In this document: one piece after another, positions 3,865 to 25,795 of the stretch | How positions within the stretch are numbered: position 1 is the first letter of the stretch | Layout: every line of letters begins with the position of its first letter | Source: a virus | IMG/VR virus record: IMGVR_UViG_3300031857_001224 | Location: 1 to 25,795 of that record | DNA: 25,795 nt | Direction: 5' to 3' (one strand) | Made by a program: the position numbers and the translations under genes | The notes under the pieces: model-generated | Seen by the model: the letters and a program-made list of their open reading frames with translations, nothing else | Told to the model about the DNA's origin: nothing | The model's database searches: none

Positions 3865-5025
3865 TTAGGGCTTTTCTTTGATGCCGAAGGCGCTGTTTTT
3901 AGGGTCAAGGTATTTCACCAATACCTGCAACCCTGAGGCAAGCCCTGCCGAAAGCACCGTGCGGAAATCGCCGCCGCTAATGTCAAGCAGGGGAATGCCC
4001 AACCCAAGCGCCACCGAAATGCTCACCGTCACAAAGGTGCGCACAAATTCAATCAGCGCCTCATCAATCCCGGTGTTGTCTTTGATGTATCGAATGAATG
4101 TCAACATTTTTGCGGGCACACCTTTCACCTTTGATGCAGCCGCCGCCGCACCTGTGGCGGCTGTAAGCGCCCTCCCGCTGACCGCCTCCCAATTTACACC
4201 CTCAAGAGCCTTGCCCACCTGATCTGCCACGCTAGGTGTTGCGGGCTTTGGTGCGGCCTGTGGGGCTTCAACCTTCGGCGCAGGCTTCGGCGCGGCAACG
4301 GGCGTTGGCGCAGGCTGTGGCGCAGGGGTTGGCTGTGGCTGTGGTGCAGGCGTTGCAACCGGGGCAACAGGTGCAGGGGCAGCCTTACGCGCAGGGTGCG
4401 TGACAATGAGCAGCGCCTTGAAATCCTGCTTCAGCTTGCCCGCCTTCACCTTACTATTTGCGATCTGCCGCAATTGATCTTCGGTGACAGGCACCGCGTA
4501 TTTCTCAGCGGCGGTTTTCTCATCGCGTGTTGGGCAGGCCCATTGCCACCCGTGATCTTCACACCACCCCGCTGAGGTCATGTGCCCATACCCTGCAACA
4601 AGCTTCTGAGGCGCATGCTTGCCCCACCATTTGCGCCAACGGTCATGCCACGCGCTGATCGGTACGCCCGCGGGATACCCAACAGGCTGTTGCACCCACA
4701 CCATCAATGCTGCGCCCTGCTTCGCTGCCTCTACGGCATCGGCCCATGATTTGGCATAGCGGGCTTTACCCCCAAGCACGGCAATTGTTTTGGCGGCTTC
4801 AGGCAGAGAGCCGCCCGCATCGCTCACGCCCTGTTTGTCTTTTCGCCCGGTGGCTTTCTCGAATGCCGCAACACCCTGCGCGGCGGTGTAGGTGACGGCG
4901 TACCCGCTCGCCCATGAAACGGCGGCGGCGCATGATGACCATGTGCAATCGTCAAGAATCTGATTGGCGCCCTTCAATTGGGCTTCGGAATCGGCGTACA
5001 ATTGTGAGGCCACTAGGTATCTCAC
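3865..5025 (-). CDS. Endolysin: cysteine peptidase fused to holin-like tail
   Basis: A 386-residue protein in three parts. Residues 1-205 look like a papain/C39-like peptidase or amidase: Cys27 in DDCTWSSCAAAVSW is the likely nucleophile, with His148 in GYGHMTSAGW and an acidic residue near 157. Residues 212-270 are an Ala/Pro-rich linker (DNA 4216-4392). Residues 285-386 hold two hydrophobic helices, about 327-347 and 357-371, and end LDPKNSAFG, like actinophage r1t-type holins. A lysin carrying its own holin-like membrane domain is unusual; it may be membrane-tethered. The GTG at 5025 overlaps the preceding stop as GTGA. Peptidase versus amidase activity cannot be decided from sequence alone. 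Confidence 0.8.
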   Translation of the reverse strand: MRYLVASQLYADSEAQLKGANQILDDCTWSSCAAAVSWASGYAVTYTAAQGVAAFEKATGRKDKQGVSDAGGSLPEAAKTIAVLGGKARYAKSWADAVEAAKQGAALMVWVQQPVGYPAGVPISAWHDRWRKWWGKHAPQKLVAGYGHMTSAGWCEDHGWQWACPTRDEKTAAEKYAVPVTEDQLRQIANSKVKAGKLKQDFKALLIVTHPARKAAPAPVAPVATPAPQPQPTPAPQPAPTPVAAPKPAPKVEAPQAAPKPATPSVADQVGKALEGVNWEAVSGRALTAATGAAAAASKVKGVPAKMLTFIRYIKDNTGIDEALIEFVRTFVTVSISVALGLGIPLLDISGGDFRTVLSAGLASGLQVLVKYLDPKNSAFGIKEKP

Positions 5026-5276: not shown

Positions 5277-5455
5277 CAACCTTTACCCCATCTCAACGGC
5301 CCTGTGATTGCCCAAAGGGCGATCAATCCCAAAATGCATGCGCCTACAAAATCGCGCGTGCCAGATTCTGGCAGCACGATCCAAGCCACCATCATGCCCA
5401 ACCATGTGAACGATGAGGCGGTGAAATCCAAAACAAAATCAATCAGGTGCTTCAC
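5276..5455 (-). CDS. Two-helix membrane protein, candidate holin, 59 aa
   Basis: A short gene starting at GTG 5455, overlapping the preceding stop as GTGA and ending in TGATG with the next gene. The 59 residues start MKHLIDFVLDFTASSFTWLG and contain two hydrophobic segments, roughly residues 16-29 (SFTWLGMMVAWIVL) and 36-52 (FVGACILGLIALWAITG). The end PLRWGKG is basic. Size, topology and position just upstream of the lysin fit a small holin or antiholin. No holin family is firmly recognised. Confidence 0.7.
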   Translation of the reverse strand: MKHLIDFVLDFTASSFTWLGMMVAWIVLPESGTRDFVGACILGLIALWAITGPLRWGKG

Positions 5456-6492
5456 GGTTTCGCCTTTCGTGAGCCTCCAATTGACGATGCCGCCGCGGCT
5501 GCCGCCGCTGCCGCTTGGGCAACCTGCGTGACAATCACGGCGGGCACAATTGTAGCGGCTGCTTTCTCTTTTTCTTCAGGCGTTAGATCGTGTCCAAGAT
5601 TGGCAACGAATGCCGCGGCCTGCCCTACCGCTTCGCTGACCGCTGCCGCCGCCTCACCAATGGCAGCCGCCACCTCTTCAGCCGCCGCGCCGGGGTCAAA
5701 GGGCACAGGCTCAGGGGTGGGCTCAACGGTGGGCGAAGGCGTGGGCTCAGGGGTCACGCTAGGGCTCACCTCAGGCGAAGGCTCAGGCGTAGGGGTTTGC
5801 GCCACGGTGGGGCTAGGTGAGGGCGATTCAGGGGCAGGGGGCGGGGTTGGGCTAGGCGAAGGCGTAGCGGGGCTAGGGGAGGGCTCTACGCTAGGCGCAG
5901 GGCTAGGCTCAGGGCTAGGATCAGGGCTAGGGCTAGGTTGAGGGCTATTAGTTGGCGAAGGCTCAATGGGTGGCGTGGGCTCATAGGTGGGCACCTCTTC
6001 GCTAGGCTGCACGCTAGGCAGCGGGGTTGCCTCCGGGCTAGGGTCAGGGGAAGGCTCAGGGCTTGCAGGTACAAAGGCGGGGTCACTAATGGTGAGCACC
6101 CCCGCGCCGCAACAGGTATCAACCGCCCACACGCCGAAGCCGTACACGTCACCCGGCTGCACCTCAAATTGAATGCCGCCATTGCCTTGCACGCCTTCGC
6201 TCATGAGATCGGTGGCAACGCCATTGATCAAGAATTGCGGCCGATCGAAATGCGCCGAATCGGTGGTGGCGTATTCCCAAAGCAGCCACACCGTGCCCGC
6301 TGCATCGGCCGTGGTGGTGTAGGTGGTGACGTGAGAGCCGCCGCCACCATCGGCACCCGTGATGACAAAGCCACCGTCAATGAGCTGCACGGTGCCATTG
6401 GCGGTGGTGGTAAATACCCATTCAGCCGCGGCCACAGGTACGGCACGCCACAAAACGAAAGCGGCAAGCAGCGGCAAGAGCACGCGCCGCAT
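5452..6492 (-). CDS. Secreted Ser/Pro-rich protein with beta-sandwich domain
   Basis: A 346-residue protein with a signal peptide (MRRVLLPLLAAFVLW, then RAVPVAAAE). A beta-rich domain spans about residues 23-140, with alternating Thr/Gly strands, a WLLWEYATTDS segment and an unusual Cys-Cys pair in VDTCCGAG. A long Pro/Ser/Glu linker follows (about 142-267). The Ala-rich helical end includes GHDLTPEEKEKAAATIVPA and a run of Ala before a basic tail. The beta domain resembles secreted adhesion-like modules, but no family is certain. The ATG at 6492 overlaps the previous stop as TAATG with AGGGC upstream. Secretion into the cell wall or display from it is inferred. Confidence 0.75.
   Translation of the reverse strand: MRRVLLPLLAAFVLWRAVPVAAAEWVFTTTANGTVQLIDGGFVITGADGGGGSHVTTYTTTADAAGTVWLLWEYATTDSAHFDRPQFLINGVATDLMSEGVQGNGGIQFEVQPGDVYGFGVWAVDTCCGAGVLTISDPAFVPASPEPSPDPSPEATPLPSVQPSEEVPTYEPTPPIEPSPTNSPQPSPSPDPSPEPSPAPSVEPSPSPATPSPSPTPPPAPESPSPSPTVAQTPTPEPSPEVSPSVTPEPTPSPTVEPTPEPVPFDPGAAAEEVAAAIGEAAAAVSEAVGQAAAFVANLGHDLTPEEKEKAAATIVPAVIVTQVAQAAAAAAAAASSIGGSRKAKP
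5692..6069 (-). repeat. Low-complexity Ser/Pro/Glu codon repeat
   Basis: This stretch encodes the linker of the secreted protein and is made of irregular short repeats of PSP, PEP and TPEP units, with DNA words such as GGGCTAGG and GGCTCAGG recurring on the plus strand. Such tracts can change length by slippage or recombination. They also generate long spurious open frames on the opposite strand. Confidence 0.85.
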
Positions 6493-6677
6493 TATTTGCC
6501 CTGTGATTGCAGCCACGCCAAAAGCGCGCCGATACCCCCAACACCTAGCATGGCGCCCAATGCGCGAAGCACCGCCAACCCGCCTTTCATTTGATCAATC
6601 TCTGCCTTCAGGGCATCGATCTTTTCGCTCTGCGAATCAAGCCGGGCAATGATTTGTTCAGCCTGTGTCTTTGTCAT
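6492..6677 (-). CDS. Coiled-coil membrane protein, holin-like, 61 aa
   Basis: Residues 1-35 form a heptad-like helix (QIIARLDSQSEKIDALKAEI). They are followed by a hydrophobic glycine-rich segment LGAMLGVGGIGALLAWL and a short polar end. This architecture resembles XhlA-type lysis accessory proteins and small phage membrane proteins at the tail/lysis boundary. The ATG at 6677 overlaps the previous stop as ATGA, with only a weak GAGC upstream, so expression is probably coupled. Confidence 0.7.
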   Translation of the reverse strand: MTKTQAEQIIARLDSQSEKIDALKAEIDQMKGGLAVLRALGAMLGVGGIGALLAWLQSQGK

Positions 6678-14390: not shown

Positions 14391-14651
14391 CTAATTCTCC
14401 ATGATCATGTAGGTGAGGGTTTCGGTAGTGGCGCAAATTGCCCAAAGCTCATCACCGGGGCGCAGGCGGATTTCAACCGCGGCCGCATCTTTATCGAATA
14501 GCAGCCCCGTTGCGGTGGTGACATTCGCAGCCCCAATGAAAACGTCAGCGTTGCCAATGGTGTGCAAGATGACGCGGCAGCCGTCAACGTCAGGCGTCAC
14601 GATCTTTGCCGCGGTTGACGTCACCGCGATTTGCCCTGTAGTAAATGCCAC
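14391..14651 (-). CDS. Small head-associated protein, 86 aa
   Basis: A predicted all-beta protein starting AFTTGQIAVTSTAAKIVTPD. It carries DVFIGAANVTTATGLLFDKD and RPGDELWAICATTETLTY, a pattern I recall in uncharacterised phage virion proteins, possibly decoration or spike-like. The GTG at 14651 has AAGGGG about 10 bases upstream, and the gene sits 3 bases after the previous stop. No enzymatic motif. A role on the capsid surface is inferred from position and fold only. Confidence 0.7.
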   Translation of the reverse strand: MAFTTGQIAVTSTAAKIVTPDVDGCRVILHTIGNADVFIGAANVTTATGLLFDKDAAAVEIRLRPGDELWAICATTETLTYMIMEN

Positions 14652-14954: not shown

Positions 14955-16091
14955 TTAGACGTTGGCGCCCTTGAATGTCTTCACGGCGTTTGGATCAATG
15001 AGGCCCGTAGCACCGCGGAGAATTCCGCGATACGTGATGAGCCCATTGGCGAACGCGTAAGAGGTATCCGCGGAGATTGCAGGCGCGCCCGCAACCACGG
15101 TGTAGATAGCGCCAAGATCACCGAAGGCGATGCTCAGAGCTTCGTCACCGTTATCAGCCAGAGCGGCTGAATAAACCGGGAATCCCAAGATCGTGTCAGG
15201 GCGGGTCTGATCACCCGGCACAAAGATTGGGCGGCTCGCGCCGTCAACCAACCCCATGACCGCACCCAACGTGGTGTCATTCATGAGGAAACCACGCTTT
15301 GCGGCGCGGCGTGCCTGCTGCTTGACGCTGTAAATCAGCGAGAGCAGGTTGGCATACGTAGGAGCAACGGCTGCACCCTGTACGCCAACGGTGGCGGCGG
15401 CTGCTACGGCAGGGCCTGCAACGGCACCATGCGCAACGGCCAATTCAGCGGCAAGCTTTTCGGTTGCCCATGAAGCCACGTCAAACATTTGATCCTGAAC
15501 GGTTTCAATGCCAACCTGAAGCAGGCTTGCATACTTCACCGGGGTGAGCGAAAGGCTCGAATTCGTGCCATCGCTCTCACCGATTGAAGCGCCTTCGCTC
15601 ACAGCGGCGGCTGTTCCAAGCGCCGTGGTGCGCGGGAGCGCAATCACGTTGCCCTTCGCAACCTGAAGCACCGTGACAACGGCAGGATCAACGAATGGGT
15701 TTACCTGACCGGCGGTGATCCAAAAACGATCACCCTGCTCAACGGCCTGCGTGAACGTCGCCTTTGTGACGTCGCGCAGCTCAACCTCACCACCCTCACG
15801 GGCGATGCGGCGAAGCTCTGCCGAAAGGTCACGCGTTGCATCGGCAGCCGGGGCGAAGGCAACAGCCTTTTCCGAACGGGCAGCGTCAGCGGCGGCGCGG
15901 GCCTCTGCGGCGATCTTCTCCGAAGAGATCGCGGAATTGAGAACGGCAGCCTCTGCCGTAAGGGCGTCAAAGCGTGCCTGAGCCTCAGCCGTGAGGGCTT
16001 CGCCCTTTTCGGCATGCTCTGCCACGATGCCCGAAGCATCGGTTAGCAGCGCGGCGCGCTTCTCAGCCAGATTCTTGATAGCGTCAGACAT
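14955..16091 (-). CDS. Major capsid protein, HK97 fold
   Basis: A 378-residue capsid subunit. Residues 1 to about 100 are helical and charged (EKRAALLTDASGIVAEHAEK and a long Ala/Glu/Lys stretch), matching a delta-type scaffolding domain usually removed by the prohead protease. The rest is HK97-like: FVDPAVVTVLQVAKGNVIAL, VSEGASIGESD, ASWATEKLAAELAVAHGA and RGFLMNDTTLGAVMGLVDG. The end AFANGLITYRGILRGATGLI is the usual P-domain/A-domain closure. The ATG at 16091 has AGAGG upstream. Because scaffold, protease and capsid genes are adjacent, no separate scaffold gene is needed. Confidence 0.95.
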   Translation of the reverse strand: MSDAIKNLAEKRAALLTDASGIVAEHAEKGEALTAEAQARFDALTAEAAVLNSAISSEKIAAEARAAADAARSEKAVAFAPAADATRDLSAELRRIAREGGEVELRDVTKATFTQAVEQGDRFWITAGQVNPFVDPAVVTVLQVAKGNVIALPRTTALGTAAAVSEGASIGESDGTNSSLSLTPVKYASLLQVGIETVQDQMFDVASWATEKLAAELAVAHGAVAGPAVAAAATVGVQGAAVAPTYANLLSLIYSVKQQARRAAKRGFLMNDTTLGAVMGLVDGASRPIFVPGDQTRPDTILGFPVYSAALADNGDEALSIAFGDLGAIYTVVAGAPAISADTSYAFANGLITYRGILRGATGLIDPNAVKTFKGANV

Positions 16092-16198: not shown

Positions 16199-17704
16199 CT
16201 ACCCCTTGAGCTGCTCCAATTTGAGGCGGGCTGCCACAACCGTGTGGTGCTCACCCATTGGTGCAGGCTCAGATTCGATCGCCTCAACCTCAGCGGCTGC
16301 ACCCAATCGGGCGCGCACGGCATCAAGCAGGGCGGTTTGGTCAGCGTCAAGATCGGTGCCCGCCTTGACGGCTTCAAGGGTTTCAAGCAGCGCATCACCG
16401 TCAACGCCAATTCGCGTTGGCGCAATCTTTCGCACGGCTGTGAGCCCTAGCGTTGCCGGGTATGCAGGCTGATGCCCTGAGAGCGTTGACACCTCGAGCA
16501 GCCCAATTTCGGTGAGGGTGCGGCTGCCGTCATCATTCCAAACCTGCCCATTCTTTGGCACGGTGAAGCCGAAGCTCATGCCCATTGCCTTTGATTCGTT
16601 TTGCAATTTTGAGATGACGGCGGCGGCGTCAGGATCGGCAGGGTCAAGGCGTGCCTCAACCTTCAAGCCCACCGCATCTTCGGTGAGGCTCAGGCGCCCG
16701 CTTGCCGTGGTTGCAAGCATGCGGCTTTCATCATGACCGTGCAAGAATTTGATGACGCGGCGGCCCTGCTCAGCCTGCTTGATTGCACGGCTGAACGCGC
16801 CCTGCGCGATGCGTTCGATAAACGGCAGCCCCTGCGATTCCGCGCCGAAAACGGCAGCGTACCCCGTAAAGGTTTTCTGCCCATCTTCGGTGTCGCTCAC
16901 CGTGAATTCGCCCAATGGTAGGGCGCGCATTTCATGTTCACGTGCCATCGCGTTGATCTCCTTTTGTGCCGCCTCCGCTGTGATTCTATCTGCCCACGCC
17001 AACACACGATCGGCGCCGTTTGTGTCTACGGGATTGACGCCCCAAAGCAGCGCGGCCACGGCTCCCGGCGCGGGAAAATCAGGGTGCTCAGCATCGCTAT
17101 TCTGAGGCACGCCTTCCCAATCGCCGCGGTGCCTGCGAATCCATGCTGACATTCGCGCCACCTTTTCATCGTCAACCTCACCCGCGGCAAGCTGCCGCGC
17201 TTCGCGCACGGTTTGATCCTGCAAGCCTTCGCCCCCAAGCCCGCCCTCATACGCCTCAAGCCCCGCGGTTGCGGCGGCTGAAACATAGGCAGGCACGGTG
17301 ACGATGGCGCGGCTCTCTTCGCGCAGCGCCTCTTCAGGCGTGTATGCCTCAATGCCTAAACCGCGCGCCATGTCGCGCACGGCGGGGTCATTGTCAATGG
17401 CGTATTCGATTTCATCGCCGTATTCTTTGGCAAGCAGGCCGTATTTGTATTCTTTGAATGCAAGCCCGGTGGCAAAGGCGCTGCCCTCAAAATCATTCAA
17501 ATGGATTTCGTCAACACCTGCAACGCCATGCTCTTGCAGCCATGCGCGGGTTTCGGTGAGGCGGTCAATCTTGCGCGCGCTGACAATCAAAATCTGCGCA
17601 TCACCGCTCATCACCTGATCATTCAGGTGATCGATCAGCGGCTGATTCGGCGCGTCATTCTCAAGAATCAACGTGCCGTCAAGGTCAACGATAATGTAGC
17701 TCAA
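16199..17704 (-). CDS. Three-domain protein: HAD phosphatase, helical module, prohead protease
   Basis: A 501-residue fusion. Residues 1-130 are a HAD-type phosphatase: Asp7/Asp9 in VDLDGTL, Ser42 in IVSAR, Lys84 or Lys87, and Asp104/Asp106 in AIDNDPAV. Residues 135-245 form a helical module (TVREARQLAAGEVDDEKVAR, RMSAWIRRH, ending AALLWGVNP) that I recall from other phage head-region proteins. Residues 258-425 match the HK97 prohead protease: TFTGYAAVFG, His324 in LHGHD, Ser377 in MGMSFGF and PAYPAT. The end looks helical. The TTG at 17704 overlaps the portal stop as TTGA, with GAGGAG upstream. A phosphatase with all catalytic residues inside a capsid protease is unusual. Confidence 0.88.
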   Translation of the reverse strand: MSYIIVDLDGTLILENDAPNQPLIDHLNDQVMSGDAQILIVSARKIDRLTETRAWLQEHGVAGVDEIHLNDFEGSAFATGLAFKEYKYGLLAKEYGDEIEYAIDNDPAVRDMARGLGIEAYTPEEALREESRAIVTVPAYVSAAATAGLEAYEGGLGGEGLQDQTVREARQLAAGEVDDEKVARMSAWIRRHRGDWEGVPQNSDAEHPDFPAPGAVAALLWGVNPVDTNGADRVLAWADRITAEAAQKEINAMAREHEMRALPLGEFTVSDTEDGQKTFTGYAAVFGAESQGLPFIERIAQGAFSRAIKQAEQGRRVIKFLHGHDESRMLATTASGRLSLTEDAVGLKVEARLDPADPDAAAVISKLQNESKAMGMSFGFTVPKNGQVWNDDGSRTLTEIGLLEVSTLSGHQPAYPATLGLTAVRKIAPTRIGVDGDALLETLEAVKAGTDLDADQTALLDAVRARLGAAAEVEAIESEPAPMGEHHTVVAARLKLEQLKG

Positions 17705-18876
17705 GCCTGCGGCTCCTCACCTACGGTGCCAATGTTCAGCGGCTGCCTGAACACGTCACCTTCAGGGCCAAGAGGCGGGCGATCCTCCATAGCGCGCACC
17801 TCATTGAGCGTCAAAAATCCGCCTTCATTCAATCCGATTTTGTACGCCTCATAACGCTCTTTAGTGAGCGGGCGCAGCATTGAATCAACATTGAATCGAA
17901 TGAATGTGGTTTCCCCAACGATGAGCCGCTGAAGCCCTGCCTCAAGCCGCGCAATCAGGCTGCCCAACCCAAGCATCAACCATTCACGGCTGACAATCTC
18001 AAGGCTCGAATAGCTAGAATTTGCGCCGGGTAGCTGTAGCAGGTGCAGCGGGATACCGTACAGGCGGGCGATCGCCTGCGTGCCTGCCTCCATGTTTGCC
18101 ACAATGTCAAGGTCAGAGGGCTTGAAGGTGAGCGGCTTGAAATCCGCACCGCCCGTGAGCACCGCAATTTTGTGCATGTTGCGCAGGCCCTCATGACGGC
18201 GCCCAAATGATGCACGCAGGGTTTCTGCCTGATCATTGGTGAGCTCGCCCGGTACGGTCACCAATCCCGAAACCGAAGCGCCCTGCTCAAAGAATTTGGC
18301 GGCGTATTCGGTGGTTGCCTTTGCGAGCCCAAGCGTGATTTTGTGATGTTCAACAGGTGAGATGCCGCGTAGATCTTCGCCCACACCAAAAAGGGTGATG
18401 TGCACAATGTCCTCATCGGTGAGATCAACCTTGCCTGAGGTGGTGGTGATGCGATAAATCGGCGCGCCATTCTCACCGCGAAGCACCGCAACCTTTCGGG
18501 GATCAAGCAGGCGCACCTCAACGATCTCTGCACCATCGCGCAGGATCATCAAGAATGCGTTGCCGTCAATGAGCAGGCTGCTCACGGTACGGTGCAACAG
18601 GTCAAAGCGCGTATAGTTTTTGTTATTCGGCACAGGGTTATCAAGCCACCGCGGGCGGGTCACAGGGCGGCGAACGCCACCATCACGAATGAATACACCG
18701 ACGGGCATGCTTGCCACGGTGTTGGCGTACAGCATCACCGATGCGTACAGGGCACCAATCGTGGTGGCATTTTTCTCATTGAGGCTTACCCCGGCAACGT
18801 CAGAATCAACAGGCCACATGCCGCCTACCTGCCGCTGCTCTACCTCACGCCCCAAGATTCGATCAAGAATACCCAC
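17701..18876 (-). CDS. Portal protein
   Basis: A 391-residue portal of the HK97 family. Evidence includes the SLNEKNATTIGALYASVMLY start helix, the NTVASMPVGVFIRDGG segment, RFDLLHRTVSSLLIDGNAFL, and the C-terminal block ARLYGIPLHLLQ followed by NSSYSSLEIVSREWLMLGLG, all typical. The dodecameric ring it forms is the DNA channel and the docking site for terminase. The GTG at 18876 has GGGAG upstream. It follows the large terminase by 11 bases and overlaps the protease gene by 4, the canonical head module order. Confidence 0.95.
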   Translation of the reverse strand: MGILDRILGREVEQRQVGGMWPVDSDVAGVSLNEKNATTIGALYASVMLYANTVASMPVGVFIRDGGVRRPVTRPRWLDNPVPNNKNYTRFDLLHRTVSSLLIDGNAFLMILRDGAEIVEVRLLDPRKVAVLRGENGAPIYRITTTSGKVDLTDEDIVHITLFGVGEDLRGISPVEHHKITLGLAKATTEYAAKFFEQGASVSGLVTVPGELTNDQAETLRASFGRRHEGLRNMHKIAVLTGGADFKPLTFKPSDLDIVANMEAGTQAIARLYGIPLHLLQLPGANSSYSSLEIVSREWLMLGLGSLIARLEAGLQRLIVGETTFIRFNVDSMLRPLTKERYEAYKIGLNEGGFLTLNEVRAMEDRPPLGPEGDVFRQPLNIGTVGEEPQA

Positions 18877-18887
18877 GCAATTTCTCC

Positions 18888-20507
18888 CTACAGCTCAATG
18901 AATTGCACCGATGCCTTCGGCGTATCAAGCGCCTTTGCGCCTAGCGTAGCAGCACGCCCCCACGCCATAATGGCTGCCACGCAAAGGTCAATTTTCTTGC
19001 CCGCATCTTTCCCCTTTCGCACCTGCACGCCATACCTAGTCTGCACGGGGCTTGCATTCATCACGTGCCGGGTCAGCCGCGGGTCACCGTCATGCTTGAG
19101 GCGTTTGTTCACCACGGCATCGTAGAAAGCAGCGGTTGCAGGGGTCATGCGCGCAGGGCTTTGCGGGTGCTCAACCACGGGAAGCCCTGCCTGTTGCCAA
19201 CGCTCCATGACGGCCTGCCAACGGTACGGGTCACAATTGATCTCGCGCACGTCATAGGTTTTGCAGATTTCTTCAACCCTCATTTCAACCTGCTCAACAG
19301 GCACGCGCCATGAGAGATCATCAATGGGGCGCTCCCACAGCCCAAGCGTAAACACCGCGCCATCGGTAATGCGCACGCCTACCACCGCCGTTGAATCGTT
19401 TGAAAATGAGCCATCGAATCCACAAACCAAAGGGTCACCCGGCTCAAGCTTCAAGGTGGTATCGGCGCATGAATCCCACGTGCCCGCGGGCAGAAAGGCA
19501 ACGCCTGAGGCCGTGAATTGGTTGAGGCGCTTTGTTCTAAATTCGGCTTCGGGGGTGCGCATCTTCGCGCTCTTGAGATCGTCAAGGCTCAACAGGGGTG
19601 GCGTTGAGAGCAGCCCCGGATTCGCCTGTGCCCATTTTGTTTCATCGGCGTAGGCGTCATCATCGGCCTCAAACCACGCCATGCCCAACGTGGGGTCATC
19701 GTGCTCACCCGTGATGCGGCGGCGTGCCAATTGGTACAGGGTGAAGGCGATTGAATCCATGCCCGTTTGATCGGTACGCTGCCCCGCCGTAGTGATTGCC
19801 AGAAAGAGCGGGCTGCGCCGGGCGCCCATGCTCAGGCTCAACACGTCGAACAGGTCACGATTCGGCCATGCCGCCAATTCATCGGCAAGCACTAGCGTGG
19901 CGCTCAAGCCCTCTTTGGTGTACGCCTCCGAAGAAAGCGCCCGCCAAATGGTGCCCGTGGGTTTGAATTCTAGGGTGTCACGAAACACCTTGATTTGTTC
20001 AGCCAACATGGGGCTCATCTCAACCGCGCGCTTCGCGTGGCTCATCACCAATTTGGCTTGATCCCGATCGGCGGCTGCCGAATAGATTTCACCGCCCTGA
20101 TCACCGAAGAGCCCAAGCGCCAACGGCACCGTTGAGAGCAGCGCGGTTTTGCCATTCTTACGGGCTGCACCCACCATGAAAAAGCGGTGGGCAAACGTGC
20201 CATCGGCTTTGCGGGCTAGGGCATGGCGTAGCAGCTCACGTTGCCACGGGCGAAATTGCATGGGCTCGCCTGAGAGCCCGCCGATCGAATCTTTAGCGAT
20301 GGGCACCAATGCCTCACCGAATGCAGCCACCTGATCGCCTAGCGATCGGGCAAGATCTTCAGCCCCGGTGGGCGTCAACCATTTGGGCGGCCATTCGGCA
20401 ACGCCGCGAATTTCTCCCTGAATTCTTCCAACAGGGTGCGGGCCTGCACCATTGCGATGCCTAGCCTTGCCCGATCGCTTGGGGTCAGCCCTAAGCTGCT
20501 CAGCCAT
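18888..20507 (-). CDS. terL: Terminase large subunit
   Basis: A 539-residue packaging motor of the Terminase_1 type. With numbering from the ATG at 20507, Walker A is GAARKNGKT near 113-121, Walker B LVLADE ends at Asp209-Glu210, a coupling motif LAITTAG follows, and the nuclease domain starts with Asp364 in CGFDGSFSND. It overlaps the small subunit by 133 bases. I chose 20507 for its AGAGGA site and because WPPKWLTPTG upstream of Walker A looks conserved. A TTG at 20378, overlapping the terS stop as TTGA, would give 496 residues and cannot be excluded. Confidence 0.95.
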   Translation of the reverse strand: MAEQLRADPKRSGKARHRNGAGPHPVGRIQGEIRGVAEWPPKWLTPTGAEDLARSLGDQVAAFGEALVPIAKDSIGGLSGEPMQFRPWQRELLRHALARKADGTFAHRFFMVGAARKNGKTALLSTVPLALGLFGDQGGEIYSAAADRDQAKLVMSHAKRAVEMSPMLAEQIKVFRDTLEFKPTGTIWRALSSEAYTKEGLSATLVLADELAAWPNRDLFDVLSLSMGARRSPLFLAITTAGQRTDQTGMDSIAFTLYQLARRRITGEHDDPTLGMAWFEADDDAYADETKWAQANPGLLSTPPLLSLDDLKSAKMRTPEAEFRTKRLNQFTASGVAFLPAGTWDSCADTTLKLEPGDPLVCGFDGSFSNDSTAVVGVRITDGAVFTLGLWERPIDDLSWRVPVEQVEMRVEEICKTYDVREINCDPYRWQAVMERWQQAGLPVVEHPQSPARMTPATAAFYDAVVNKRLKHDGDPRLTRHVMNASPVQTRYGVQVRKGKDAGKKIDLCVAAIMAWGRAATLGAKALDTPKASVQFIEL

Positions 20508-20860
20508 TTGTAAATCCTCTCTTCGGTTGCCGTGCGCATGCCCCAAGCGGGGTGCGCGTAGGCATAGCCTTTGTCTGTGAAGAGCACCATACCATCGGCT
20601 TCAAGCCTAGCCGTGATTTGCGCCAAAATTGATTCATCACGGCAAAGCATCGTGAGGGCTTCGCGGTCAGATTCTGCCAACCAATCGCAGGCCGATGTGA
20701 TGCGCAGCCAAACGCCCTGCGCCACCGGGTCAAGCCCCTCAGGCACCTGCAATGCGTTGAGCGGTGCCACACCATTGCCCTGTTTGGCGGGCATGCGTGA
20801 AGGCTTGAGCGTGCCGCGTTTGGCTTTGATTTCATTTGGCAGAGGCTTAGGCGATGCCAT
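20375..20860 (-). CDS. terS: Terminase small subunit (P27-like)
   Basis: A 161-residue protein of the P27-family type: the basic start PLPNEIKAKRGTLKPSR, then a helical region VAQGVWLRITSACDWLAESD (the dbP/W-x-R-I motif), DREALTMLC, and an EERIYKWLSSLGLTPSDRAR end. Small subunits recognise the packaging site and regulate the large subunit. The ATG at 20860 has GGTGGGGG upstream; an in-frame codon at 20872 is less likely. The repeat-rich stretch just upstream (20861-20917) is a candidate recognition site. Confidence 0.9.
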   Translation of the reverse strand: MASPKPLPNEIKAKRGTLKPSRMPAKQGNGVAPLNALQVPEGLDPVAQGVWLRITSACDWLAESDREALTMLCRDESILAQITARLEADGMVLFTDKGYAYAHPAWGMRTATEERIYKWLSSLGLTPSDRARLGIAMVQARTLLEEFREKFAALPNGRPNG

Positions 20861-20940: not shown

Positions 20941-21288
20941 CTATTCATGCGCAGATTCTAACCCGCCCCCCCTATGTTGCGTCACCTTGCCGTGGCAAGA
21001 GCGGCAAAGCACGCGCAAAAGATCTTTGGGCACCACAGGGCTTTGCCCCGGTTGCAGGGGGTACACGTGATCAACGGTGAGGTTGGCAGGGCTGCCGCAT
21101 CTCTGGCACCACGGGTGTTCACGCCTCATCTCCGCGCTCAGGCGCCGCCATGCAGGGTCAGCGTAGGGCTGAGGGCCGCGCTCACGCTGCCGCTTTGCCG
21201 TGATTTTATTTGCGCAGGTACCGCATCGGTTGCCTATGCGTTGCAACACGCCACAGGTCAGGCAGGCGCGGGCAAACCTAAGCGGCAC
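20941..21288 (-). CDS. HNH endonuclease
   Basis: A 115-residue HNH nuclease. An N-terminal zinc ribbon (CLTCG ... RCGTC) precedes the HNH core: CQRCG at 61-65, Asp73-His74 in TVDHVYPL, and LRVLCRSCHGKVT with Cys95, Cys98 and His99. HNH proteins next to terminase genes assist the large terminase in cohesive-end cleavage in HK97-like phages. The GTG at 21288 gives the typical start PLRFARACLTCG and overlaps the previous stop by 11 bases. An upstream in-frame start at 21327 is less likely. Confidence 0.92.
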   Translation of the reverse strand: MPLRFARACLTCGVLQRIGNRCGTCANKITAKRQRERGPQPYADPAWRRLSAEMRREHPWCQRCGSPANLTVDHVYPLQPGQSPVVPKDLLRVLCRSCHGKVTQHRGGGLESAHE

Positions 21289-21763
21289 GGGGTTTGAAAT
21301 TCGGCAGGGGCAAACGCTCAGCCACAATGAAGCTCAGGGCTTCGCATACCCTTTCGCTTTCGGTATCAAATTGAGAATCAAACAGGCTGAACGCCTCAGC
21401 CCCCAAGATGCCATCAAGGTGCGCCACCATTCGATCAAGGGCGTGATGGTGCACGTGCATCAATTCGTGGGCAAGCACCCGGCGCTGCTCACGCGGCTTG
21501 AGCTTGAAGAAATCGTTTGATAGGCGAATGGTTGCCACCCATAGGTTGGCGCTCACCTCAATGTCAGCCCACGCATCATCGGGCGGCAGATCATCGCTCG
21601 CCTTCAATTCCCATTCGGTGAGGCGCATGATGCCGCGGTTGGCGTTGAGGTATGCGGTGACGCGCTCACGCGGTGTTGGGGTGTTAGCCGCCCGCGCGTG
21701 GGAGGATTCACGCGCGGGCGGGGGGCCGCCACTAGGTGACGGCGTGCGCCGATTGTATGCCAT
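21278..21763 (-). CDS. HEXXH zinc metallopeptidase
   Basis: A 161-residue protein with His99-Glu100-x-x-His103 in LAHELMHVHH, followed by acidic residues in TESERVCEALSF that could supply the third ligand. The first 35 residues are Pro/Ser-rich and disordered. The fold resembles phage and SprT/ImmA-like minimal metallopeptidases. The ATG at 21763 shares a base with the preceding stop (TGATG) and has GGTGGG upstream. The preceding gene encodes an HTH protein, recalling ImmR/ImmA pairs where a peptidase inactivates a repressor. No substrate can be stated. Confidence 0.78.
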   Translation of the reverse strand: MAYNRRTPSPSGGPPPARESSHARAANTPTPRERVTAYLNANRGIMRLTEWELKASDDLPPDDAWADIEVSANLWVATIRLSNDFFKLKPREQRRVLAHELMHVHHHALDRMVAHLDGILGAEAFSLFDSQFDTESERVCEALSFIVAERLPLPNFKPRAA

Positions 21764-22242
21764 CAATCCCACCGATCAGGCGATGACACACGCTTTGTGT
21801 GCGCATTGCCTTTCAACGGCAGCGGTGATGCCGGGCGAAGCACGCAGGTTGCATCGGGGCAGCGTGGCGTTTTGCCTTCGCCTGTATCCCCACCAACGCA
21901 CCAATCACAAAACCTGTTCACCAACATTTGCAATCGGCGTGCCTCTTTCTCTGCCGCGCTGAGCTCAGGGCGCTTCGGTGAGGTGTACGGCTTGGGGAGA
22001 TCCTCACGGCTCACCCAATCATCATCTTCAAACGGCCCGAAGGCTTGGGCGAAGATGAAACAAAACCGTTCACTAGGGCGGCGCTCTGCCTTCGCATAGG
22101 ATCGAATGGTGCGGCCTGTGATCTCAACGCCGCATTCACGCATGTGGGCTGCCACCTTTTCTGAAGCCACCACCGCTGTTGAGCCGGGGTATGCCTCAAG
22201 CACCCGTTTGTTGATTACCTCAGGGCGCAGGCTTCGGCTCAT
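21763..22242 (-). CDS. HTH protein with C-terminal zinc motif
   Basis: A 159-residue protein. The N-terminal 70 residues (VINKRVLEAYPGSTAVVASE, then TGRTIRSYAKAERRPSERFC) look like a helix-turn-helix domain. The C-terminal part carries Cys112, Cys115, Cys128 and Cys133 (CDWC ... RCPDATC) followed by RPASPLPL, a zinc-motif layout I recall from phage DNA-binding proteins. The ATG at 22242 overlaps the previous stop as ATGA, with GGTGG upstream. It may regulate transcription or bind packaging DNA. It is directly upstream of the HEXXH peptidase. Confidence 0.72.
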   Translation of the reverse strand: MSRSLRPEVINKRVLEAYPGSTAVVASEKVAAHMRECGVEITGRTIRSYAKAERRPSERFCFIFAQAFGPFEDDDWVSREDLPKPYTSPKRPELSAAEKEARRLQMLVNRFCDWCVGGDTGEGKTPRCPDATCVLRPASPLPLKGNAHTKRVSSPDRWD

Positions 22243-25407: not shown

Positions 25408-25795
25408 GTGTTGTTTCTCCCTTCAATGCTTTCATGCTCTTCAAATACCTTTGCGGGACACGATTACCCCACGGTGTTGCCTCCCATACTTTCTGCCCTT
25501 CGCGGGCCTCAATCCAACCGATCACGTCAACCACCCGATACCCTGACAGGGGCAGCGGGTAGGCAAGCACCATGATTCGATCACGTGCAATGTCACGTTC
25601 ACGCACCTGCAACCCGTTGCCGGGCTTCAGGATTCGCCGCACCTCTAGGCGCTCGCCCACGTCAGGATCGTTGCGATGGGCGCCGTGATCGTCACGGCTC
25701 CAAGCCAACCCGTGCCAATGCTGACCCGTGAGTTTTGCCACCGCGTATTCGGCAACGGCCGCCACGCAATGTGAGGTTTGGGAATCGTCAGCCTT
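25391..25795 (-). CDS. Join-spanning hypothetical protein, C-terminal part
   Basis: The 3' part of the gene that starts at 253 across the join. It contains AEYAVAKLTGQHWHGLAWS, DPDVGERLEVRRI and a RIMVLAYPLP strand, then VVDVIGWIEAREGQ. The Glu of AEY, Asp of DPDVG and E-x-R in LEVR resemble a PD-(D/E)XK arrangement with Lys replaced by Arg, a guess from pattern only. It overlaps the Rad52-like gene by 17 bases, so all three recombination-region genes are probably co-transcribed. Confidence 0.85.
   Translation of the reverse strand, partial: KADDSQTSHCVAAVAEYAVAKLTGQHWHGLAWSRDDHGAHRNDPDVGERLEVRRILKPGNGLQVRERDIARDRIMVLAYPLPLSGYRVVDVIGWIEAREGQKVWEATPWGNRVPQRYLKSMKALKGETTHAEAR
25684..25795. repeat. 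Terminal direct repeat, right copy
   Basis: The second copy of the 112-base terminal overlap (see 1-112), differing only at 25695 (C here, T at base 12), which changes an Arg codon here to His in the left copy of the minus-strand gene. It supports circular closure and suggests minor sequence variation in the source population or a single-base error. Confidence 0.93.

Follow-up and report, generated by a model that had tools for sequence, protein, structure and literature searches.

An HAD phosphatase-like module joined to the prohead protease of an uncultured phage and its relatives

Results

Gene, coordinates and genomic context

The window, that is the whole stretch of DNA that was analysed, is an entire virus record of 25,795 bases. 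Its two ends (positions 1-112 and 25684-25795) carry a direct repeat of 112 nt that is 99% identical, and the record therefore probably represents a complete phage genome (about 25.7 kb) that is terminally redundant or was assembled as a circle. The genes around the locus follow the order portal, protease, capsid of a late structural operon and lie on the minus strand. The portal protein gene (17701..18876; Pfam Phage_portal, 1.7e-70) is preceded by that of the large terminase subunit (18888..20546; TerL_nuclease, 3.7e-21; TerL_ATPase, 9.1e-18), and the major capsid protein, which has an N-terminal scaffold (delta) region, is encoded downstream of the protease gene (14955..16091; Phage_capsid, 2.6e-27).

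Directly downstream of the portal gene, and overlapping it by 4 bases, lies the gene of interest (16199..17704, minus strand; 501 aa and a stop codon), which encodes an HAD domain, a domain here called F and an S78 prohead protease. The initial annotation had listed one ORF in this interval; it is real and lies on the minus strand, and the plus strand of the interval contains many stops. Its TTG start codon overlaps the TGA stop of the portal gene (TTGA) and is supported by the relatives, which start at the equivalent site with ATG, GTG or TTG.

Four further genes of the window deserve mention. A small protein encoded after the capsid gene (14391-14651) resembles, by eye, gene 5 of Pontimonas phage phiPsal1 (L002:3536-3805); gene 5 is placed between portal and protease in that phage, and the window counterpart would be a displaced small head gene. 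A 386-aa protein (3865-5025, minus strand) has an N-terminal stretch with a cysteine-peptidase-like motif and a C-terminal membrane stretch. It had no match in Pfam or PHROG and may be an endolysin. A 354-aa protein (5452-6516, minus strand), with no match in PHROG, begins with a signal-like stretch, continues with a long Pro/Ser/Glu repeat and ends in a hydrophobic, Ala-rich stretch. Upstream of the terminase genes, a small HExxH metalloprotease-like protein is encoded (21278-21772, minus strand; Peptidase_M78, 8.3e-5).

The fusion is a genuine gene

We scanned IMG/VR with the family of the window protein and kept 80 of the 195 encoding stretches. HAD, F and protease were found in a single frame in 79 of the 80, at 58-94% identity; one kept sequence (L068) ends early at a contig end. 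The initial annotation had proposed a database search for the same fusion and had named two genes joined by a frameshift as the finding that would overturn its reading. Since 79 other contigs keep the same in-frame fusion, such an assembly artefact is excluded and its chance is practically nil; a distinct clade that carries HAD in other module orders also speaks against it. Among dereplicated members, mean pairwise identity was 0.74 for HAD, 0.67 for F and 0.72 for the protease, so that HAD is as conserved as the protease.

No relatives of the fusion were found among plasmid sequences, nor in GTDB when scanned with the family of the window protein. When GTDB was scanned with a second, distant HAD clade (see below), four multi-module members were obtained together with many ordinary proteases, which served as controls. 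Databases already contain related proteins, under no other names than prohead protease or HAD-like.

The protease domain

Residues 270-419 (16448..16897, minus strand) form an S78 or HK97-type prohead protease, as had been claimed from the His and Ser in the C-terminal part. The domain matched Pfam PF04586 (Peptidase_S78) at 1.8e-29 (103.5 bits; cut-off 21) and TIGR01543 at 1.5e-24 (86.7 bits; cut-off 59). His324 and Ser377 were invariant in 28/28 aligned relatives, and the assignment rests on the curated profile scores, these two residues and the late-operon position. The full-length structural model reached a pTM of 0.36, and the relative placement of the domains was left uninterpreted.

The HAD domain

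The HAD phosphatase domain (residues 1-124; 17333..17704, minus strand) was delimited by PHROG 415, predicted structure, Foldseek and conservation. Its motifs are VDLDGTL (6-12), IVSAR (40-44), K84 and AIDNDPAV (102-109), with D7, D9, T11, S42, R44, K84, D104 and D106 as key residues. They provide motif I DxDxT (D7-L-D9-G-T11), the motif II Ser/Thr (S42), the motif III Lys (K84) and the motif IV Asp (D104). D9, G10, T11, S42, R44, K84, D104, N105 and D106 were unchanged in all 80 relatives and D7 in 79 of them. The second HAD clade keeps D7, D9, T11 and R44 in 34/34 sequences and K84 and D104 in 33/34, with T or S as the motif II residue. The complete catalytic set that had been read from the window is thus near-invariant in the 80 relatives and in the second clade. 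Variant sites occur in single lineages, namely Asp to Glu at residue 7, the nucleophile (L014), and at residue 104, the motif IV Asp (L190, D104E), and DIDNT in place of DIDGT at residue 10 (L197/L202; window numbering); they may reflect a change of specificity or inactivation.

The AlphaFold2 model of the domain shows alternating strands and helices, with pLDDT blocks mostly 87-94 (about 90), and the leading Foldseek matches of this predicted Rossmannoid structure were HAD phosphatases, in agreement with the fold first proposed. The best PDB match was the 3'-phosphatase of T4 Pnkp (5uj0; E=1.2e-5, TM 0.64 on target); lipin/Pah HAD phosphatases were also among the matches. An HAD profile searched against the PDB reached Pnkp at 2.3e-4, and phmmer with the whole 501-aa protein found no PDB match; Pnkp was reached only by profile and structure searches. 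PHROG 415 (polynucleotide kinase) matched residues 2-122 at 5.8e-11. When residues 1-123 were compared with phage records, the matches listed were mainly polynucleotide kinase/phosphatases (26-34% identity), and none of those listed was annotated as prohead protease. A tree of HAD domains, in which Pnkp-like domains were the only outgroup, separated both protease-HAD clades as one group from the Pnkp domains (95/95); the branches between these two clades are long.

T4 Pnkp (PseT; 5uj0, 1ltq; PHROG 415/505; HAD_PNKP) is thus the best relative of the domain in fold and sequence, with which it shares the HAD core and the motifs DxDGT, S/T-x-R, K and D. R213 and K258 of T4 Pnkp have their counterparts in R44 and K84. 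Besides the common HAD set, we take R176, D254 and D278 to be essential side chains of T4 Pnkp. In the alignment, R176 falls in a gap, D254 is replaced by G80 and D278 by N105; motif IV reads DD in T4 Pnkp and DND in the clade of the window. The 5'-kinase domain attached to T4 Pnkp was absent from the 501-aa ORF in Pfam and PHROG searches, and the Pfam HAD_PNKP score of 16.3 bits lies below the cut-off of 27.6. For lack of equivalents of R176 and D254 and of the kinase, we did not class the domain as a plain T4-type Pnkp. The likeness to polynucleotide phosphatases suggested by the initial annotation therefore holds for the closest fold and sequence relative and fails at two Pnkp-specific essential residues. 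Because the catalytic set is kept and these residues are missing, catalysis by the HAD domain is likely, and the likeness hints weakly at nucleic acid ends as substrate; we treat 'polynucleotide phosphatase' as a lead and make no such assignment.

The F module

The initial annotation described the fusion of HAD and protease correctly and missed a third domain between them. This module, F (about residues 133-250; 16955..17308, minus strand), is helical in the predicted structure and, modelled alone, reached a pLDDT of 91.6 and a pTM of 0.84. It belongs to no Pfam family and had no match in the PDB by profile or by fold. F was found in BFVD proteins named prohead protease, XkdF, HAD-like, ParB/sulfiredoxin, Dps, portal and major capsid; A0A6J5PW45 is one of the HAD-like records. 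Synechococcus phage S-CBS1 gp04 joins F, S78 protease and a capsid domain in a single chain, and the 'major capsid protein' of Roseobacter phage CRP-821 does so with module E in addition. In Limnohabitans phage DC31, F stands beside an XkdF-type protease, and in the minor head protein gp15 of Nodularia phage 2AV2 it occurs with Tudor and InPase domains. F is thus a recurrent component of phage head proteins and a candidate head-targeting domain.

The two protease-capsid chains of S-CBS1 and CRP-821 (L218:2474-4984 and L219:2480-5248) are annotated merely as capsid; L221 and L222 are further F-bearing loci beside these two.

Modules are exchanged in front of the protease

Scans with the phiPsal1 protein, followed by scans with the second HAD clade, yielded 127 more loci, to which module profiles were applied. 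At least seven modules (A-F and HAD) are swapped in front of the protease (P) among related phages, and at least four architectures contain HAD: HAD-F-P (68 distinct ORFs), A-HAD-F-P (21), A-HAD-C-F-P (7) and HAD-P (5, at least three of which retain a degenerate F-like stretch). The other module orders include A-C-F-P (22 distinct ORFs), A-B-F-P (11), A-D-E-F-P and B-C-F-P. Module D is DUF3721 and module E is DUF5824; A resembles DUF2188, B the HIPIP Cys4 proteins and C Hva1_TUDOR, these three likenesses falling below the Pfam cut-offs. F adjoins the protease in nearly all family members. Since HAD occurs in varied module orders, it behaves as an exchangeable module as judged from the sequences. 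The initial annotation had overlooked that the N-terminal half is modular and that HAD is one among several interchangeable modules.

The closest named phage is phiPsal1 (MG835450), whose prohead protease (AUV61415.1) has the same gene position and shares the F module and the protease (37% identity over residues 73-443); modules A (DUF2188-like) and B (Cys4, HIPIP-like) replace HAD in it. In bacterial genomes, 76 protease-only S78 ORFs stood against four multi-module ORFs. The four come from two MAGs, one from a pond (A-HAD-F-P) and one of an uncultured member of the Microbacteriaceae. These members, together with the host of phiPsal1, point to aquatic actinobacteria as probable hosts. A 651-aa ORF on a Microbacteriaceae MAG contig (L225) carries the Tudor-like module in tandem (A-C-C-F-protease).

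An E-x-R motif at module linkers and at the capsid scaffold boundary

The linkers are lower-confidence regions of the AlphaFold2 model. The one between HAD and F contains E130-S-R132 followed by A-I (17309..17317, minus strand), with predicted self-cleavage after R132, which was invariant in 28/28 aligned relatives. The F/protease linker (low-confidence residues 249-265) contains E258-M-R260 followed by A-L (16925..16933, minus strand). Whichever modules are neighbours, E-x-R recurs at their boundaries, and a small or polar residue comes next.

Ordinary, module-free S78 proteases, used as a control, also open with E-x-R (73/76). The motif between F and protease is therefore no evidence of cutting between modules when taken alone; we set it aside and recomputed the enrichment without this boundary. 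Among 34 representatives (80% identity cut) with 66 boundaries upstream of that of the protease, E-x-R was present in 44 of the 66 non-redundant linkers, which are related by descent, so that the counts are not independent. Shuffled linkers gave 13.4±3.1 (maximum 23) and same-length windows inside modules 8.3. E-x-x-R was not enriched in the linkers, and other spacings were far weaker.

The capsid protein carries E104-L-R106-D-V at the end of its scaffold region (15774-15782, minus strand), a predicted maturation site whose motif is conserved in relatives. Of 122 distinct capsid proteins encoded by the same phages, 85 have E-x-R-[DATSQ]-[VILAM] at the scaffold boundary. The putative cut lies after the Arg of E-x-R. 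Self-cleavage, which the initial annotation had offered as one way of releasing the HAD domain, is a prediction that gains support from this motif, enriched at the linkers and present at the capsid scaffold boundary.

Discussion

Comparison with known systems

Our computations establish a fusion with intact active sites at both ends, the shuffling of modules in front of the protease and an E-x-R motif that linkers and capsid share. Polyvalent proteins with C-terminal assemblin-like proteases are known, whereas the fusion of HAD and prohead protease, the F module and a motif common to module linkers and the capsid scaffold boundary were not reported in the literature searched. Polyvalent proteins of phages and conjugative elements (Iyer et al. 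2017, PMC5512222) unite several unrelated domains in one polypeptide, and their genes lie among those of the virion; some have at the C-terminus an assemblin-like peptidase with the prohead-protease fold that is thought to process them, and these proteins are predicted to be packaged, processed and injected (PMC5512222). The window protein resembles them in having at least two functionally disparate domains, a gene beside virion genes and, in line with the rule given in that paper, a C-terminal peptidase (270-419 of 501). It differs in that its peptidase holds the canonical position of the prohead protease and is the only peptidase recognised in the window. Of the domains catalogued for polyvalent proteins, InPase accompanies F in Nodularia phage 2AV2, and F also occurs in the BFVD protein named ParB/sulfiredoxin; the sole catalogued domain of the window protein itself is the peptidase. 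The terms HAD, haloacid dehalogenase and phosphatase are absent from the text of PMC5512222.

With HK97/S78 prohead proteases (PF04586, TIGR01543, PHROG 80), the window protein shares scores above the curated cut-offs, His and Ser, and gene order. It differs from them by about 250 extra N-terminal residues that include an enzyme domain, and in PHROG 80 modules A and B take the N-terminal place that HAD has in the window.

Proposed mechanism and its alternatives

Our preferred reading, which we hold tentatively and at not quite even chances, is that the protein is of the polyvalent type: its prohead protease would bring HAD into the procapsid and then release it by cutting itself, and some of the HAD would be injected. 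The 501-aa protein would be built into the procapsid as the protease precursor. Once activated, the protease would cut the capsid protein as well as its own linkers after the Arg of E-x-R, and self-cutting would release the HAD enzyme (residues 1-132; 14.7 kDa) and the F domain (133-260; 13.7 kDa). Part of the HAD would remain in the virion head and enter the next host along with the DNA, where it may remove phosphates. The most plausible targets would be the damaged ends of nucleic acids, bearing 3'-phosphates or cyclic phosphates, or else a nucleotide signal. The HK97 prohead contains about 60 protease copies (PMC12749128), and many packaged head proteins are reported to be ejected into the host (PMC10052503).

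Release of HAD could equally serve to clear it from the particle, since fragments and propeptides of prohead proteases are generally expected to exit the head (PMC10052503). HAD would then act only in the producing cell or while heads are assembled; its targets might be, for instance, nucleotides, the ends of DNA or a head or terminase protein that carries phosphate, and it would be degraded or lost when the protease destroys itself, with nothing injected. The place of HAD within the late structural operon agrees with this alternative, and so does its conserved active site, which implies that catalysis matters somewhere. We nevertheless consider it doubtful: modules that swap freely in front of one protease fit a cargo better than a fixed assembly step, and relatives with other modules, such as phiPsal1, manage without HAD.

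The modules might instead be mainly structural, as spacers, as contacts to the scaffold or as a means of targeting the protease to the procapsid, and the activity of HAD incidental. F at least may be such a head-targeting part, as it stands beside the protease in nearly all members and also occurs in portal and capsid fusions. For the module set as a whole this is improbable, given that the HAD catalytic residues have all been retained under selection in two clades separated by long branches, that ordinary S78 proteases need no such module (76 protease-only ORFs) and that the capsid protein has a scaffold region of its own.

We give slightly less credence still to HAD as a moron-like phosphatase acting on a nucleotide, sugar or lipid phosphate, which would be carried along by a late gene, work from unassembled protein in the cytoplasm of the lysing cell and share only its fold with Pnkp. 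The two missing Pnkp-specific residues and the lipin/Pah phosphatases among the fold matches are what such an enzyme would lead one to expect, but the nearest annotated phage sequences are polynucleotide kinase/phosphatases, and the motif at the junction suggests a release coupled to maturation.

Implications

Beyond the window, the preferred reading of loading and self-release can be extended to the family, a generalization that we put forward with somewhat more reserve. The essential prohead protease of a large set of aquatic phages may be a general cargo-loading platform, with which exchangeable enzymatic or binding modules (HAD phosphatase, Tudor-like, Cys4, DUF5824, DUF3721, DUF2188-like and F) would enter every procapsid, be freed by the E-x-R specificity that also matures the capsid and be delivered to the host. 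Specialists may be most surprised by the modular protease family, the F domain and the cleavage motif common to linkers and capsid. F, a new domain whose fold is predicted with confidence, can be named as an element that phage head proteins share. If the proposal is true, E-x-R between modules would provide a testable rule for reading the polyproteins of uncultured phages, and a PNKP-like phosphatase packaged in the head could counter the nucleic acid damage inflicted by host defences upon entry. Capsid maturation and the delivery of virion enzymes, which are usually treated apart, would then be linked by the specificity of one protease.
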